Below, one piece after another: positions 32,323-41,339 of a stretch of 64,000 bases of DNA. Each line of letters opens with the position of its first letter. The first letter of the stretch is position 1. Location: contig NEWQ02000003.1 in the NCBI GenBank assembly GCA_002869855.2, forward strand, positions 1-64,000, written 5' to 3'. The position numbers and the translations under genes were made by a program. A model generated the notes under the pieces. The model worked only from the letters and a program-made list of their open reading frames with translations. It was not told the origin of the DNA and searched no databases. Source of the DNA: Nitrospira sp. CG24D (GTDB taxonomy: Bacteria; Nitrospirota; Nitrospiria; Nitrospirales; Nitrospiraceae).

Positions 32323-33221
32323 CCACGAAGTCGTTCGGGTGGGACTCAAGACCGTCCTCGCCCACCAGGATCGCATTACCGTCGTCGGAGAATCCTCGAC
32401 CGTCGCCGATGCCGTTCGGGATACGGCACGGCTGAAGCCGGACGTCATTCTCATGGACGTGCGGCTCCCGGACGGATCCGGTGTGGATGCCTGCCGGGAA
32501 ATCCTCACGACCCACCCCCACATTCGTGTCATTTTCCTCACCTCATATGCCGATGATGATTCGGTCCTCGCGGCCGTGTTAGCGGGCGCCCACGGGTATG
32601 TGCTGAAAGAGATCGATTCGGCCGCGCTGCTCCGCGCGGTGCATGCCGTGGCTGAAGGGCATTCCATTCTCGATCCTAGTGTCACAGAACGGGCGCTCAA
32701 ATGGCTGCGAGGCATCGGCCAGGGCTCAGCTCCTCCTGGGACCGAGCCGTTGTCTCCCCAAGAAGAGCGGGTGCTGGCCCTCGTCGCAGAAGGTCACACC
32801 AACAAGGAAATCGCCACCGCACTGAGCCTCAGCGATAAAACGGTCAAGAATTACTTAGCGAATGTCTTCCAGAAACTCCGCGTCACGCGGCGGGCCCAAG
32901 CCGCTGCTTTTTTCGCAAAGAGGAAACAATAGCTGGAGTCGGACGGCTCTACTTCAGTAGGTCCTATTTTTATTTAGGGACCACGCGTCTACCTCTAGGC
33001 TATTCGCATGAGTTTCTTTATACTTATCCGTAACCTATGGCGTGTTGTGCACCTATACCTCGTTGCTGCCCCCCTGTGATGCTGTTTGGTCCTTGCCTGT
33101 ATCAATTGGCTCTCCTCTGCGGTGTGGAAGCGCCCGGCCTGAGCACCGGGCCTCGGCTGGACCGGGAACGCGTTATCGAGAAGCCCCGCATGCCGAACCT
33201 GGCAACGCGTTGGAGCCCGGC

Positions 33222-36200
33222 ATGGATGTAACCGGCAATCTCTTGTTTGGCAGCGCCCTTCTCTCTGGAGCCGCTCTCTGGGCCTTCGTTCGTGAACGAC
33301 GGCACACGTTTCTTCAATCGAGGGTGATTGCCGCCACAAGCTCCAGCGTGCTTGTCACCGATGCCTCCGTCCCCCGCCATCCGATCATCCAGGCGAATCC
33401 GGCATTCCGGCTCTTGACCGGCTACGCAGAGAGCGAAGTCTTGGGACAATCGACTCACTTTCTGAACGGAGCCCACACCGACCGAACCGCAGTTGAGAAA
33501 ATCGGGCTGGCTCTTCAGGACAGCCGGGCTTGCCGCGTCACCGTCCGCCATTATCGGAAGAACGGCACTCCATTCTGGAACGAAGTCACGCTCTCCCCCG
33601 TCAAGAATCGGGCGGGAACTGTGATCCAGTTTATCTGGGTGATGAATGATGTCACCCAACGACAGCAGGCAGAAGAAGCTCTCAAACACACCCACGATCC
33701 CTCACATCTGTTGGCTGAACTCATGGCCGAGGCCATTCTGGTGATCGGCGAAGATAACCGCATTGTGTACGTCAATGCCGCCGGAATTCGACTCCTCGGA
33801 GCCACTTCTTCGGAACAACTCATTGGGAATCCCCTAGCGGCGATACTGCCCCCTGACCGGCAAGAGGCCGCGCGGCAACGCCTGCAGCACCTGCGCGGCT
33901 CAGGGGATCCTCGCACCTGTTACGAAGAGCGATTCGTCTGTTTGGATTCACACACGCTTCACAAAGTCGTCACGGTCATGGTCTCCGCCTCACCCGTGCT
34001 CTGGAAGGGAAGAGCGGCCACATTGTTCTCCTGCTCGGATCTGACCGCAGAACAACAGGCCCGTTCGACCACCCAGCGACTTCAACAACAATTAACGTCA
34101 ACCGAGACCGCGGCTCACCTTGGGAGCTGGGAATGGCATCCGGGAGACAACACCGCGCATTGGTCGAAGGAGCTGTACCGTATTTTGGGCCAGGAACAGG
34201 ACACAAGCCATGCCAGCCATGACCGGTTCCTGTCCTCGTTCCATCCGGACGATCGAGATCGTCTCCATATGGCCCTAGCACAGTATCTTGAGAACGGCAC
34301 ACCGCTGGATCTGAGCTGCCGTATTGTGCAACCGAATGGCACCGTTCGCCACGTGCACTGCCTCGGGGAAGCGATTGTCAGAGATGACCCGAATCAGCCA
34401 ATCCGGGTGAGCGGCACGCTTCAAGATCTCACTCCGCACGTGATGATGGAGCAGATCGCCCACGATCGGGATGAACAATTCAGGATGGTGGTGGAATCCG
34501 CCCCCAACGGCATCCTCCTGACGTCAGAGGACGGAACGATCACGCTGGCGAATGCGACACTCGAAAAGATATTCGGCTACGGTCACGGCGAACTCATCGG
34601 CCACTCGGTCGACATCCTGGTGCCGGATGAATTCAAGTCCAGCCACACGGATCAGCGCCGAAGCTTCTTCTCCTCACCCGTCTCTCGCCCGATGGGCGCC
34701 GGCCGTGAGTTTCTCGCGCGAAGGAAAGATGGGACGGAGATCTCCGTTGAAATCGGACTCGCCCCGCTTCGCACGTCGACCGGAGTTCATGTCCTCGCCA
34801 CCATCGTAGATATCTCCGCTCGCAAAGCCCTGGACGAACTGCTGCGTGAGAAGGACGACTTGAATCAAGCCGTGCTCGATTCACTGACGGCTGAAGTAGC
34901 CGTGCTCGACCAGGCCGGCCAAATTACGGCCGTGAACAAAGCCTGGAGACAATTCGCACCGATCGCCGCAGGCGAAGCGGCCCCGATCTCGCCCGGGCAG
35001 AACTATCTGAGCATTTGCAGAACCGCCGTCCAGCAAGGAGATGCCAGCGCACAGGAAGCCATCGAGGGAATCGAAGCCGTTCGAACCGGAAAACACGACC
35101 GGTTTTCCATGGAGTATGCGTGTCCGACCACTGACCAGTCTCGATGGTTTGCCATGACGGTGATGCCGCTCCGTGGACCCCAGGAAGGCCTGGTCATTAC
35201 CCATGAAGATATTTCCTCCCGCAAGCGTGCGGAACAGGAACGGGAACAGCTTCTGGTCCAGACGCAGCATTTGCAAAAAATGGAAGCGATCGGCACCTTG
35301 GCCGGCGGAATCGCGCACGAGTTCAACAATAGCCTGACCGCCGTCCTTGGGTTCAGTGAACTGGCCCTCAAAGCCCTCTCTAAAGATCACAAGGTCCGGA
35401 GACACCTCGATCAAATTATTGCCGCTGGACGAAAGTCTCGCGATCTGGTCCATCAACTCCTCACATTCAGCCAGCAAGGGCGCCATCTCAAACGCCCGCT
35501 CTCCTTGCATATTCTCATCAAGGAATCACTGAAACTGCTCCGGCCGCTCGTCCCCTCCTGGGTCCACGTCAACGAACGCATCCATGTGCCAACACCGCCG
35601 GTGTCCGCCGATTCGTCCCAGATGCATCAGATGCTGCTCAATCTTGTGGAGAACGCGTTGCGCGCGATGCAGAAAACGGGCGGGACCCTCACCGTCGCGC
35701 TGGAGGAAGTCCAGGTTGCGCAACTGCGAGTCGGCCCCCAGGCTCGATTGGAGCCAGGCGCTTATGCGCGGCTGATGGTCCAGGACACGGGGGAAGGGAT
35801 GCCGTCCGACATTCAGGAACGCATCTTCGATCCCTTCTTTACCACCAAGGATCTTGGCACCGGGCGCGGCATGGGCCTCGCGGTCGTGCATGGCATCATC
35901 ACAGCCCATGGCGGAACCATATTTGTGGACAGCGCCCCGGGAACCGGCACGACCGTCGAGGTCTACCTGCCGATTATCCCCACCCAGAACGCCACTGCCG
36001 TTTCTCCCAACGCCGAAGAGCCGCTGCCGCAAGGGCATGAGTGCGTCCTCTTTGTCGACGATGAGGAATCCCTTGCCCGTTTTGGAGGGGAGATGCTAGA
36101 GTCGCTGGGATACTATGCCGTGGTGCGTATGAGTGCATCGGAAGCCTTACAGGCGTTTCGCATGGCCCCCCAGCGGTTCGACCTTCTGATCACCGACGTC

Positions 36201-36491
36201 ACGATGCCGAACATGAGCGGCATTACCCTAGCGAAGGACTGTCGCCTCTTGCGTCCCGATCTTCCCATTATTCTCTGTTCAGGATCGGAACACACGTTGT
36301 CCGCAGAAGCCAAGCAAGTCCAAGGCTTGACCAAATATGTCTTAAAACCACTGATGCTGCAGGATGTGGCTCGCACAATCAGGCAGGTATTGGACCAAGC
36401 GGCCTCAGAGGCTCCGTCCGCCCATCAGCGATACCGTGAACTCGCCCGCGAACTTGTTGAGGAACACGATGCCATCAGTCCTAGTCGTTGA
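33222..36491 (+). CDS. PAS-containing hybrid sensor histidine kinase with C-terminal receiver
   Basis: TM near N-terminus, several PAS units, HisKA GTLAGGIAHEFNNSLTAVLGFSELAL, HATPase, receiver ECVLFVDDEESL. Confidence 0.92.
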   Translation: MDVTGNLLFGSALLSGAALWAFVRERRHTFLQSRVIAATSSSVLVTDASVPRHPIIQANPAFRLLTGYAESEVLGQSTHFLNGAHTDRTAVEKIGLALQDSRACRVTVRHYRKNGTPFWNEVTLSPVKNRAGTVIQFIWVMNDVTQRQQAEEALKHTHDPSHLLAELMAEAILVIGEDNRIVYVNAAGIRLLGATSSEQLIGNPLAAILPPDRQEAARQRLQHLRGSGDPRTCYEERFVCLDSHTLHKVVTVMVSASPVLWKGRAATLFSCSDLTAEQQARSTTQRLQQQLTSTETAAHLGSWEWHPGDNTAHWSKELYRILGQEQDTSHASHDRFLSSFHPDDRDRLHMALAQYLENGTPLDLSCRIVQPNGTVRHVHCLGEAIVRDDPNQPIRVSGTLQDLTPHVMMEQIAHDRDEQFRMVVESAPNGILLTSEDGTITLANATLEKIFGYGHGELIGHSVDILVPDEFKSSHTDQRRSFFSSPVSRPMGAGREFLARRKDGTEISVEIGLAPLRTSTGVHVLATIVDISARKALDELLREKDDLNQAVLDSLTAEVAVLDQAGQITAVNKAWRQFAPIAAGEAAPISPGQNYLSICRTAVQQGDASAQEAIEGIEAVRTGKHDRFSMEYACPTTDQSRWFAMTVMPLRGPQEGLVITHEDISSRKRAEQEREQLLVQTQHLQKMEAIGTLAGGIAHEFNNSLTAVLGFSELALKALSKDHKVRRHLDQIIAAGRKSRDLVHQLLTFSQQGRHLKRPLSLHILIKESLKLLRPLVPSWVHVNERIHVPTPPVSADSSQMHQMLLNLVENALRAMQKTGGTLTVALEEVQVAQLRVGPQARLEPGAYARLMVQDTGEGMPSDIQERIFDPFFTTKDLGTGRGMGLAVVHGIITAHGGTIFVDSAPGTGTTVEVYLPIIPTQNATAVSPNAEEPLPQGHECVLFVDDEESLARFGGEMLESLGYYAVVRMSASEALQAFRMAPQRFDLLITDVTMPNMSGITLAKDCRLLRPDLPIILCSGSEHTLSAEAKQVQGLTKYVLKPLMLQDVARTIRQVLDQAASEAPSAHQRYRELARELVEEHDAISPSR

Positions 36492-36840
36492 CGACGAAGA
36501 TCAAATCCGCCAACTGATCCGAGAGACTCTGGAGCAGGCGGGGTACGACGTACAGGAAGCCAGCAACGGGAAGCAGGGCCTGGAGCGGTATCGGACCAAG
36601 CCCGCGGATCTCGTCATCATGGACATTCTGATGCCCGATCAAGACGGGCTCGAAAGTATCATGACACTGCGCCGTGAGTTCCCGGCCTCGCGCGTGATTG
36701 CCATTACCGGTGGCAGCGACATGATTGGCATCCTGAATTTCCTCGATGTGGCCAAAATGCTTGGAGCCCGACGCACCCTTCAGAAACCGTTCGATATGCA
36801 GACGCTTCTGGATGCGGCCCAATCAGAACTCAGTCACTAG
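36469..36840 (+). CDS. single-domain response regulator (CheY-like)
   Basis: MPSVLVVDDEDQIRQLIRETLEQAGYDV...DLVIMDILMPDQDG...LQKPF; overlaps previous CDS. Confidence 0.92.
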   Translation: MPSVLVVDDEDQIRQLIRETLEQAGYDVQEASNGKQGLERYRTKPADLVIMDILMPDQDGLESIMTLRREFPASRVIAITGGSDMIGILNFLDVAKMLGARRTLQKPFDMQTLLDAAQSELSH

Positions 36841-36905
36841 CTCACGCCCACATCCCTCACTCCACGTTGACATCACGGCGTCCTGCCCGGCACACTGCCG
36901 CCTCC

Positions 36906-37343
36906 ATGTTTCCAGCCACTCAAAGAATCCTGCTGCTGAATATCAGCCTCGGCACACTCGTCGTGGCCATAGGATTCTGGCTGCTCTGGGGCACGCTGGC
37001 GCCCGAGGTGATTGTCCTGTGGGTCGCGCTGGTCGGATCGTTTTTATATTGGAAGTGCTGTACCATCACGGAGATTTGGGCCTGGTCGACACTGTTGCTC
37101 GGGCTCGAGAGCTTCGCGTGGCCGCTGCAACTGATGATACAGCTCAAATCAGCTGCATTAGTACCCTCTGATGAAGAAATGGGTACGATTCTCTCCGCGG
37201 TGGTCCTTGGTCTGTTCTCATCGGTCTTTTGGATGTCCTTTTCCTACGGCCTGTTCAAACGAAAGCCTGGAACACCTGCTCCCCCGACCACCCCCTCCAC
37301 ACCTGAACACACCAAACGGCCCTCACGCCAGAAAAAGCGATAG
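36906..37343 (+). CDS. hypothetical membrane protein
   Basis: Four hydrophobic helices, basic Pro-rich tail; start estimated at ATG 36906. Confidence 0.6.
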   Translation: MFPATQRILLLNISLGTLVVAIGFWLLWGTLAPEVIVLWVALVGSFLYWKCCTITEIWAWSTLLLGLESFAWPLQLMIQLKSAALVPSDEEMGTILSAVVLGLFSSVFWMSFSYGLFKRKPGTPAPPTTPSTPEHTKRPSRQKKR

Positions 37344-37347
37344 TCCC

Positions 37348-39594
37348 TTACCCCATATCGACCGGATCGACATCCACACTAAACTTGAAGGTTCGACCCG
37401 GATACGCTCGTTCCATCGTCTCGAGCGATCGGCGGACTCCGTCACGCATCGCCGTGCGATCTCCACCCTTGACCATGATGTGCCACCCCAATGTTCCTCT
37501 GGAGCCTACCCCTGTCGCCGCCACCGGTCCGAGAACGACGATCCCCTGACTCTGTGGATCCGCCGATAGACTCTGCTGCGCCGATGCCGATCGAGATGGC
37601 GCCGCAACGAGCATTTTGTGTAATTCGTTCACCCATCGCTGCGCCGCAACCTCGGTCAGCCGCCGATCTTTCCCTGACACCGTCAAATAGATGAGATGCT
37701 GGACCGGCGGATAACCCAACATGCGACGCGCCTGAATCTCCTCATCATAAAATATGGCCGGATCGTGCGCGGCCACCGCTTGCATAACATGATGCATCGG
37801 CAAAGCAGTCTGCAAGATGACACGCCCCCCTGAGGGCGCCGGCCGCGCCAGATCCACCGCATCAACCAACAACTGATGGGTCCGTTCAGCCGCCCGAAAA
37901 TCCGGGACGTGCAGACCGGAATCGGCATGGACAATTCCAACGAGACCGACCGGCAGAATGGGCTCCCGTTGAAACAATGCCTGTGTCCCGATCAGGATGT
38001 CCCAGGTCCGGGAATGGACTTGCTGCCACAGTCGACGCGTGGACACCACCCCACGAGTCGTGTCGCGATCAATTCGGAGAATCCGTGCCCCGGGAAAGAG
38101 CCGGCGGACTTCCTGCTCGATTCGTTCTGTTCCTTCCCCAATCGGGCTTAAGCGTGACGCTCCACAGGCGCCACAGATTTCGGGCAGCGACTCTCTACAC
38201 CCACAATAGCGACAGACTAGGCGTGCGGACTCCCGGTAGTACACGAAGGCGACGGCACACGAAGCACAGCGCGGCACCCATCCACAATCGCGACAGACGA
38301 GAGCCCCGGCATATCCCCGGCGGTTGAGAAACAGAATCGCGCGATCTTGTTGCGCCACTGTGGCTCGCAGAGCGGCCGTGAGGGTCGCGCTGAATGGCGC
38401 TCCGCCGTACTCCCGGCTCATATCTACCAGTTCAATTTGGGGGAAACTGTCTGGCTCCCTGCATTGAGCCACCCGTTCGATCTCGCCCACGCTCCGCACT
38501 TCCAGAGACGGATGGGCAGATCCATACACCAACAGCGCAAACTCGCGCTGCGCCCGCATCCATGCCACTTCTCGTGCATGATAGTGCGGCTCCTGAGGCT
38601 CTTTGAGGGCGGAATCTTCTTCCCCATCAACCCATATCAACCCGATCGATCGAAGGGGATAAAAGATGGCCGAGCGGGTTCCTATTACAATCTGCGGAGC
38701 TACCTTCCCATTCAGTTCAGCATCGACTCCCGACACACCACGGGACTGAAGTGTGACGGGGTATGTTGTGGCCTCTTGAAGGACCTGAGCCATCCACTGG
38801 GCTCGCACCACTTCACCAATAATAATGAGAACGGACCGCCCTTGTTCCAGAACCAATTGGGCAAGCCTTGCCATGATACCGACTCGATAGTCCAAGACCC
38901 CGTCGATCAGCACCCTTGTCGGGCAAGCCTGCATGAGCATCTGGAGCCGCTGCATCACCTCAACCGCTGGAGCGATCGGCACACATACGGGAGTCGAGAG
39001 TTCAGTCCCGGCCTTACTTCCGAGAATACGAGACGGACGATTGGAGACGGCTCCCTCGCTCCGGAGAATCCATTGTTGAGCTTCGAGAAACAGAAGGGCC
39101 TGACGGTCACTGCTCCGTCGAGACGACTGAATGGTCCCAGCAGAGAGGCCCTTCTTCCTGCGCGCGATTCGTTGGAGTAGCGGAAGATGCACCTCCGGAC
39201 AACTCCCCTGCTCCAAGGCCAGACGTCCCTGTGAAGTGGCCACATAAGACCATTTCGGTTGGGCAACCGCGCGAGCCGGCGGTGCCACGAGCCGTAAACA
39301 CTGCCCCCAGGGAGCGATATATTCTTCGGCTACCTGCCGCGAGAGCTCGAACATCCCGGGAGAAAACCCGGACAAACCGTCGCCATCTGACACCGAAGCA
39401 ATGGCCTTGAGTTGGGATACATTCAGCCCGCCGGGCAGATCGCGAGTCAGTCCTATAACGGCCCCCTCCAACGTCGTTCGCCCAAATGGCACGACCACAC
39501 GCTGGCCTACTCCAACCCGGCTCACAAGAGACGGCGGAACCAGATAGGTGAAGGTCTTCGCCAGATGCCGCGGAACAATCACGTCGGCAAACAT
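37348..39594 (-). CDS. priA: primosomal protein N' (PriA-like) with degenerate helicase motifs
   Basis: N-terminal MFADVIVPRHLAKTFTYLVP; zinc-binding CRDCGWVPRCASC / CRYCGCRESLPEICGACG; IVIGTRSAIFYP and ILIGTQALF. ORF track start 39639; MFADV Met at 39594. Confidence 0.88.
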   Translation of the reverse strand: MFADVIVPRHLAKTFTYLVPPSLVSRVGVGQRVVVPFGRTTLEGAVIGLTRDLPGGLNVSQLKAIASVSDGDGLSGFSPGMFELSRQVAEEYIAPWGQCLRLVAPPARAVAQPKWSYVATSQGRLALEQGSCPEVHLPLLQRIARRKKGLSAGTIQSSRRSSDRQALLFLEAQQWILRSEGAVSNRPSRILGSKAGTELSTPVCVPIAPAVEVMQRLQMLMQACPTRVLIDGVLDYRVGIMARLAQLVLEQGRSVLIIIGEVVRAQWMAQVLQEATTYPVTLQSRGVSGVDAELNGKVAPQIVIGTRSAIFYPLRSIGLIWVDGEEDSALKEPQEPHYHAREVAWMRAQREFALLVYGSAHPSLEVRSVGEIERVAQCREPDSFPQIELVDMSREYGGAPFSATLTAALRATVAQQDRAILFLNRRGYAGALVCRDCGWVPRCASCAVAFVYYRESARLVCRYCGCRESLPEICGACGASRLSPIGEGTERIEQEVRRLFPGARILRIDRDTTRGVVSTRRLWQQVHSRTWDILIGTQALFQREPILPVGLVGIVHADSGLHVPDFRAAERTHQLLVDAVDLARPAPSGGRVILQTALPMHHVMQAVAAHDPAIFYDEEIQARRMLGYPPVQHLIYLTVSGKDRRLTEVAAQRWVNELHKMLVAAPSRSASAQQSLSADPQSQGIVVLGPVAATGVGSRGTLGWHIMVKGGDRTAMRDGVRRSLETMERAYPGRTFKFSVDVDPVDMG

Positions 39595-39767
39595 GGGTGC
39601 ATTCGGATAATCGGTACGTGGACGAGAATCGATGGGCATCCGGCATTCTAGCAGCGAGGCGAAAGCCAGAACAATGAAGAGAAAGAAGTGAGGGGAGAAT
39701 GACCGCAGAAGAACTGTTCAAGGGACGGGCACATGAGAGATGCGCCCGCCCATTTGAAATAAGAAAC

Positions 39768-41339
39768 CTACTCTAGGGGCCGACCAGGGGGTACAGCCGG
39801 ATCCTGCGCGGCCGGATCTGGAAGCCCCGCCGATCCTGAAGAGTCAGGAAGACTGAGCGTTCCGGGTCCGTCGTTGCCCGGCAGGGCGTCCTGCCCGATT
39901 GCTGAAGAGTCAGAGGAACCACCAACGGCATCCTGTGCAGCAGGAGCGGACAAAGAGTCGTGAGCACCCTTAGCGCTGAGGCTGGCAGGATTACTATCCA
40001 GCTTGTCTGCTGTCTTTGGCATCGTCGGCTGTGAAGGATTGGCCTCAGTTGAGGCGGGAGCGTAGAGCAGGACTTCCACACGCCGATTACTGGTCCGGCC
40101 CTCCTCCGTCGCATTCGTCGCAGCTGGGCGGCCATCTCCATACCCGACGGAAGCCAGGCGAGCCGAATCCAATCCGCCTTTTTCGACCAGATAGCGAAGG
40201 ACACCGCTCGCGCGGGCCTTGGACAACTCCCAATTGCTCGGATACCGCGACTTCAGAGTCGGGCCGATCTCGACATTGTCCGCATGCCCCTCGACCCGGA
40301 TCATTCGCGCGTCCCCGCTGGTGCGCAGATACTCGATCAATTGATCCAGGACTTTGTATCCTTCCGGCCGAATTGAAGCTTCTCCTGAATCGTACCGGAG
40401 AAAATTCGTAATTTCGCCAAGATTCAACCGGCTCTCTCCCGCAGCATCTTGGACCCTCAGCTTCCTGGCAACGAGATCCGGCGGAACCGCTGCCACCGTC
40501 TTCTCCGTTTGGAGAAACTTGGGCTGAGACAGCGGCTGAACGGGGGTCTCAACGGGTAAACCCATCGGCGCAGAATGCCCTGCCAGTTTGAATCGATCGC
40601 CTTTCATCACTCTGGTCGTAGCCCCCTGGATCATGGCTGTCGCTGTCCGATCCTCCGTCGCGATCACTTTCAATTGTCCGATTTTCCGCGGCGGGAGCCC
40701 CTGGCTGTGGCGATGCAATTCCAGAAGGTCTCCGTTCCTGAGGCCATCTCCTTTTCCACGGTCGAGATAGACAACATCGAACTGCGACACAAGCGTCATG
40801 GGCTTATCGGCCTGGAGCTCGACGATCATTCCCCGAAGTTCCGCCACATCACTCACTTGGCTGGGCTCTTCTGAAGAAACCGGCAGCACAAAACGCATCA
40901 CAGGATCGCCAGGGGCAATCACCCCAAAGCTCCGCACGACTTCAACCGTCGTCAGTGCATGATCCACTTGCGTCACCTGCACCACCGCCAGCCGGATAAC
41001 GACAAACCCAAAATACTCGCCTGTGGCCGGGTGAAAGACCTTCCGCACTCGGCGATAAACGGTGTAGAGATCACCCGGCGCGACGTCATGGGGATTATCG
41101 AGTTTGAGATACAACGCATCATTTTGCCCTAAAATCATTCGATCACCGGTCGACTGATTGTCACCGGTAATGAGATTCACGATGCCATCACGAGGCGTCG
41201 TTTTTTGAATCGCCCCCTGAGCAAATGCCAAGGCGCCTTCCCCAAATCGTACGGTGCTCGTATCAACCGGCTGAGCTCCAGCCGGCGCCGTGACCACACA
41301 CAATGCCAGGGCCAAGAGGAGAGAAGTCGTCGTTTTCAT
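39768..41339 (-). CDS. OmpA family protein with Pro/Ser/Asp-rich C-terminal tail
   Basis: Signal peptide MKTTTSLLLALALCVVTAPAGAQP; OmpA motif RVEGHADNVEIGPTLKSRYPSNWELSKARA...TSNRRVEVLL. Confidence 0.85.
   Translation of the reverse strand: MKTTTSLLLALALCVVTAPAGAQPVDTSTVRFGEGALAFAQGAIQKTTPRDGIVNLITGDNQSTGDRMILGQNDALYLKLDNPHDVAPGDLYTVYRRVRKVFHPATGEYFGFVVIRLAVVQVTQVDHALTTVEVVRSFGVIAPGDPVMRFVLPVSSEEPSQVSDVAELRGMIVELQADKPMTLVSQFDVVYLDRGKGDGLRNGDLLELHRHSQGLPPRKIGQLKVIATEDRTATAMIQGATTRVMKGDRFKLAGHSAPMGLPVETPVQPLSQPKFLQTEKTVAAVPPDLVARKLRVQDAAGESRLNLGEITNFLRYDSGEASIRPEGYKVLDQLIEYLRTSGDARMIRVEGHADNVEIGPTLKSRYPSNWELSKARASGVLRYLVEKGGLDSARLASVGYGDGRPAATNATEEGRTSNRRVEVLLYAPASTEANPSQPTMPKTADKLDSNPASLSAKGAHDSLSAPAAQDAVGGSSDSSAIGQDALPGNDGPGTLSLPDSSGSAGLPDPAAQDPAVPPGRPLE

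Follow-up and report, generated by a model that had tools for sequence, protein, structure and literature searches.

The window, by which we mean the whole 64,000-nucleotide stretch of Nitrospira sp. CG24D DNA analyzed here, encodes a full-length PriA, the protein by which stalled replication is restarted, that has lost its helicase motor and kept its zinc-binding cysteines and the architecture of the family. We consider it probable that this protein, the only PriA of its genome, lost the motor in the ancestor of the order Nitrospirales and has since been maintained as a platform for fork recognition and primosome assembly. The gene lies at the following position:

37348..39639, reverse strand, priA-like pseudo-helicase gene encoding 763 aa, with a possible alternative start at 39594 (Met16)

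The frame of this ORF is open over its full length. The initial annotation placed the gene at 37348 to 39594; its end stands, and its start corresponds to Met16, an internal methionine of the ORF opening at 39639. The 763-aa product matches the Pfam families PriA_3primeBD (72.6 bits) and PriA_C (34.3 bits) above the cut-off and Zn_ribbon_PriA slightly under it (23.5 versus 26 bits), and scores 351 bits against TIGR00595, the NCBIfam PriA equivalog, whose curated cut-off is 230.35. Residues 18–761 align end to end with E. coli PriA (PDB: 8fak) in phmmer (253 bits), all eight zinc-binding cysteines are kept, and the domain order, namely 3'BD, WH, HD1, HD2 with a CRR insert, and CTD, is recovered by Pfam, the 8fak alignment, AlphaFold, and Foldseek alike. 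An AlphaFold model, whose input included 36 related PriAs, has a pLDDT of 85.8 and a pTM of 0.85 with both RecA lobes formed, and when it was compared with the PDB using Foldseek, matches 1–9 were all PriA structures (lowest E-value 1.7e-50). By every sequence test applied the protein is a full-length PriA, and its predicted fold is confidently that of PriA. This agrees with the earlier description of an unshifted, full-length PriA, for which an alignment to PriA HMMs had been suggested as a check: the open frame, the score above the equivalog cut-off, and the end-to-end alignment all bear it out. The domains and motifs, as located by Pfam or by alignment, are as follows:

39277..39594, reverse strand, 3'-DNA-binding domain (3'BD; Pfam PF17764 and alignment)
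38875..38901, reverse strand, former Walker A (motif I), with GVLDYRVGI replacing GVTGSGKTE (alignment)
38662..38691, reverse strand, retained motif Ib, IVIGTRSAIF, including GTRSA (alignment)
38608..38631, reverse strand, former motif II, with VDGEEDSA replacing VDEEHD(S)S (alignment)
38164..38295, reverse strand, cysteine-rich region with zinc-ligand Cys 449, 452, 458, 461, 476, 479, 489, and 492 (alignment)
37951..37989, reverse strand, former motif V, with GTQALFQREPILP replacing GTQMLAKGHHFP, the GT being retained and the K and G of AKGH substituted (alignment)
37882..37902, reverse strand, retained DFRAAER stretch of lobe 2 (alignment)
37837..37863, reverse strand, former motif VI, with DAVDLARPA replacing QVAGRAGR (alignment)
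37351..37716, reverse strand, C-terminal domain, from GYPP to the end (Pfam PriA_C)

None of the signatures of an active SF2 motor, namely Walker A, DEEH, motif V, and motif VI, is intact in the window PriA: the protein lacks the Q-motif Gln, the Thr of motif III, and the Lys of motif V, along with Walker A, DEEH, and QVAGRAGR. The initial annotation had already reported Walker A, DEEH, motif V, and motif VI as replaced and the fold landmarks as present. We recover the same replacements at exact sites falling inside its approximate coordinates, and among the landmarks the eight zinc cysteines and the GTRSA of motif Ib. It had also named an intact GKT and DE(A/E)H placed elsewhere in the protein as the observation that would overturn its reading; a scan of the whole protein found no GK[ST] or DE-x-[HDC] elsewhere, which answers that point in the negative. 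That ATP is nevertheless still bound or hydrolyzed at a rearranged site, leaving the helicase active, might be argued from the Arg occupying the Walker A Lys position in many members of families f1–f3 of the order, from the few acidic residues left in motif II, and from the two RecA lobes that still fold in the model. We judge this highly improbable given that Walker A, shortened by one residue, no longer has its GxGKT core, that the arginines of motif VI have disappeared, as have the Lys of motif V and the Gln of the Q-motif, and that in E. coli PriA the single change K230R is enough to abolish the ATPase (PMC4504706). The window PriA would accordingly be expected to have no ATPase activity.

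The preferred reading, a motorless platform, is further consistent with which residues were lost and which were kept. We took as reference the 87 columns conserved at ≥95% in 86 intact PriAs; in the order, 38 of the 87 are still ≥90% conserved and 15 are lost, nearly all 15 being ATP-site columns. The lost columns include Q225, T248–K252, T280, E339, T376, K557, Q593, R597, G599, and R600. Those kept comprise the eight cysteines and their neighbors, G320/R322 (motif Ib), N439/R440/G442 (motif IV), G551/T552, D573/D580/R582/E585, and CTD residues such as G704/P705. The D, R, and E of the DFRAAER stretch are near-invariant in intact PriAs and in both of the motorless groups described below, and the second of these groups has lost much the same set of columns. 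Judged from these alignments the motor loss is targeted, not random, and its pattern points to selection for DNA binding and architecture accompanied by release from ATP hydrolysis. Mean identity in lobe 1 is 34% among motorless versus 55% among intact PriAs, so that parts of this lobe may be drifting, and in the zinc region it is 46% versus 48%. In the 3'BD, the equivalents of E. coli F16, Y18, G37, and K61 are retained by alignment and the D17 position is a Thr; the latter was considered as a specific change in the 3'-OH pocket and rejected, since in the mixed alignment Thr occurs at this position more often than any other residue. The SSB-tail contact positions given in K. pneumoniae numbering did not match up in the E. 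coli frame.

In a search of the window's genome, a draft that is 90% complete and split into 87 contigs, just one PriA was recovered. None of the genomes surveyed gave a second match on the scale of a PriA, and in the single-contig relatives among them, such as G022, G024, G039, and G196, the sole PriA is the motorless one; the next-best matches are Mfd/RecG-like scraps of at most 69 bits. The second, intact priA for which the initial annotation had advised looking was thus not found in this survey. The dN/dS ratio (Nei-Gojobori, ten close pairs) is 0.14–0.33 over the whole gene and 0.06–0.21 over lobe 2 and the zinc region, and this estimate, another check that had been proposed, indicates purifying selection. 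The gene is not a decaying copy. The incompleteness of the window's genome, together with a few same-genus drafts that show no PriA, could be taken to mean that it is a degenerate second paralog or decaying pseudogene with the true PriA elsewhere; we consider this extremely unlikely in view of the single-contig relatives, the dN/dS values, the frames that remain open in nearly all relatives, and the retention of the eight cysteines. As to the drafts, no PriA was found in the genome search of G159, G007, and G017, but in all three the neighbors of priA are also absent or broken, and in G159, a 2.0 Mb genome of the same genus that is 99% complete, the OmpA match is fragmentary and lies at a contig end. 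On these grounds we read them as assembly gaps: the pattern suggests gaps rather than real loss in these drafts, and a gap is the likelier explanation for G159.

The neighbors in question are two synteny markers:

36867..37343, forward strand, convergent neighbor, a 158-aa ORF with no Pfam match, outside the proposed mechanism
39771..41330, reverse strand, OmpA-family gene upstream of priA

The 158-aa ORF, which appears hydrophobic by eye, is convergent to priA in nearly every member of the order checked, reaching family f3, and the OmpA-family gene adjoins priA across the family. Farther along, a 1149-aa ORF (33042–36491, forward strand), by eye a multi-PAS hybrid histidine kinase, overlaps a response-regulator ORF (36364–36840, forward strand; Pfam Response_reg), the two forming a phosphorelay pair beside the priA locus. 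The conserved association with the OmpA-family gene and the small uncharacterized ORF across the order would be compatible with a role outside restart, either as a structural binder of forks or recombination junctions or as a partner of these neighbors, with restart itself being PriA-free. However, the retained residues are the ones with which PriAs contact DNA and zinc, the search for an alternative of the PriC type found none in 39 relatives, and Deinococcus provides a precedent for a retained restart role (PMC4504706); we therefore regard a role outside restart as quite unlikely. The gene is orthologous to priA, single-copy, stripped of its motor motifs, and conserved in its lineage, as a PriA pseudohelicase of the Deinococcus kind should be; the earlier proposal of a maintained pseudo-helicase is upheld by the single copy, the purifying selection, the synteny, the fixation across the order, and the confident fold.

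The initial annotation had asked whether all relatives share the loss. The motor is absent from all 66 of the sequences examined at the level of the order, which span four families (f1–f4), and from eight further Nitrospirota loci retrieved by their names, most of them labeled Nitrospira sp. and one labeled Nitrospirales bacterium NPIRA06. Elsewhere in Nitrospirota, 38 PriAs have it intact; these come from 13 families, of which three belong to the same class. Outside the phylum it is intact in E. coli and in 72 of 72 loci drawn from over a dozen phyla. Members of family f4 (L048, L049, and L050) retain an intact VDEEHD motif II after losing Walker A and motif VI; the loss may hence have been stepwise, with f4 as a possible intermediate stage. 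A second motorless group is found in 10 Nitrospirota families (f11, f17, f19, and f21–f27; 36 sequences, e.g., L110 and L124). It resembles the order in having kept the eight cysteines while missing the residues of Walker A, the Q-motif, and motif VI, and departs from it in its shorter proteins (592–705 aa), in the unrelated, APS-type sequences that replace Walker A, and in a motif VI that is partly deleted.

In trees computed with the motif columns excluded and without an actinomycete pseudo-PriA, this second group forms a clade separate from the motorless PriAs of the order, so that two changes are required, and in an 80-row tree well-supported branches force both. An AU test on 55 rows did not reject a single motorless clade (p=0.20), for which reason we take two losses within Nitrospirota as likely rather than proven. 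The same AU result would accommodate one ancestral loss in Nitrospirota or a transfer between the two motorless groups. Set against this are the two changes in the free trees, the intact motors of sister families within the class, and the differences between the groups in the residues substituted and in the lengths of Walker A and of the whole protein, which together make a single event unlikely.

Whether this lineage lost its motor independently of the Actinobacteria had been left as the open question. The PRK14873 models represent the actinobacterial-type PriA, annotated as being without helicase motifs. The window PriA is not of this type, fitting best the PRK05580 models (414 bits) rather than PRK14873 (155 bits), and on the latter it is no closer than intact PriAs, which score 134–180 bits. 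The actinobacterial protein is likewise the PriA of DciA-bearing bacteria and is annotated as lacking motor motifs. Because the sister families of the same class and the deep Actinomycetota PriAs have intact motors, and the fit to PRK14873 is no better, the loss appears to have arisen inside Nitrospirota; the comparison, made without an actinomycete pseudo-PriA in the tree, would mostly answer the question in favor of independence.

The kind of PriA pseudohelicase seen here is already known, the new parts being the lineage (Nitrospirales) and the likely repetition of the loss. The closest precedent, missing from the initial annotation, is the PriA of Deinococcus radiodurans, which shows no ATPase or helicase activity and binds ssDNA, fork DNA, and DnaB (Lopper et al., 2015; PMC4504706). 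It too is a PriA ortholog that has lost Walker A and B, in a loss that is phylum-wide (PMC4504706). Yet its Walker A remains recognizable (K to R in GKT), whereas the window PriA has a shorter, rewritten Walker A and has also lost motifs V and VI; the two also belong to different phyla, and the window PriA is known from its sequence. E. coli PriA (PDB: 8fak, 6dgd, and 4nl4) shares the domain order, the fold, and the eight zinc cysteines, but in its wild-type form it is an active helicase of 3'-5' polarity whose partners are PriB, DnaT, and DnaC. Its K230R and K230A mutants mimic the natural state of the window PriA and still assemble primosomes (PMC4504706, PMC10175261): ATPase-dead E. coli PriA leaves cells viable (reviewed in PMC4504706), and K230A PriA has been used in DnaB-reloading assays (PMC10175261). 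A literature search on PriA and helicase with Nitrospira returned nothing relevant, and no report on Nitrospirota was found among open-access papers.

The window PriA keeps the regions on which these functions depend, and we propose that the 3'BD, the winged helix, the inert RecA lobes, and the CTD would bind the arms of an abandoned fork, with the lagging-strand ssDNA framed by lobe 2, the zinc region, and the CTD, in keeping with the ssDNA path described for PriA, a pore of the CRR, HD2, and CTD (PMC10175261). The PriA complex would recruit DnaB with DciA, and the nascent lagging strand would not be unwound by PriA; the ssDNA might be supplied by another 3'-5' helicase (UvrD/PcrA-type) if duplex must be removed, or by a naturally gapped fork. 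DciA is put forward as the DnaB partner since PriC was found in 0 of 39 relatives. It is present in 110 of 110 genomes that are ≥90% complete and ≤5% contaminated, and is equally common alongside intact PriA; its universality therefore fits the model but does not discriminate. From the presence of these genes we infer that the window PriA may bind DnaB or DciA. A compensating helicase was sought and rejected: RecQ (PF16124) has a patchy distribution both in lineages with the motor and in those without it, and a UvrD-type helicase is universal (148 of 148 genomes tested), so neither tracks the motor loss. As a more speculative extension, toward which we lean less than not, the motor would have been lost at least twice in one phylum with the DNA-binding and zinc framework kept, an ATP-free PriA would in these lineages form the standing primosome for restart with DnaB and DciA, and what was the ATP pocket may serve as a docking surface.

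Under laboratory conditions E. coli can do without unwinding by PriA, yet the activity is said to be conserved in nature, Deinococcus-Thermus being the stated exception. To this is added an order-wide, long-maintained loss in Nitrospirales, which comprises environmental nitrifiers and their relatives, and apparently a second loss in the same phylum. With motorless and motor-bearing families side by side in one class, the purpose of the PriA motor becomes testable by comparison. The label "Replication restart helicase PriA" is misleading here because TIGR00595 scores motorless PriAs above its cut-off, and through this model automatic annotation calls them helicases.
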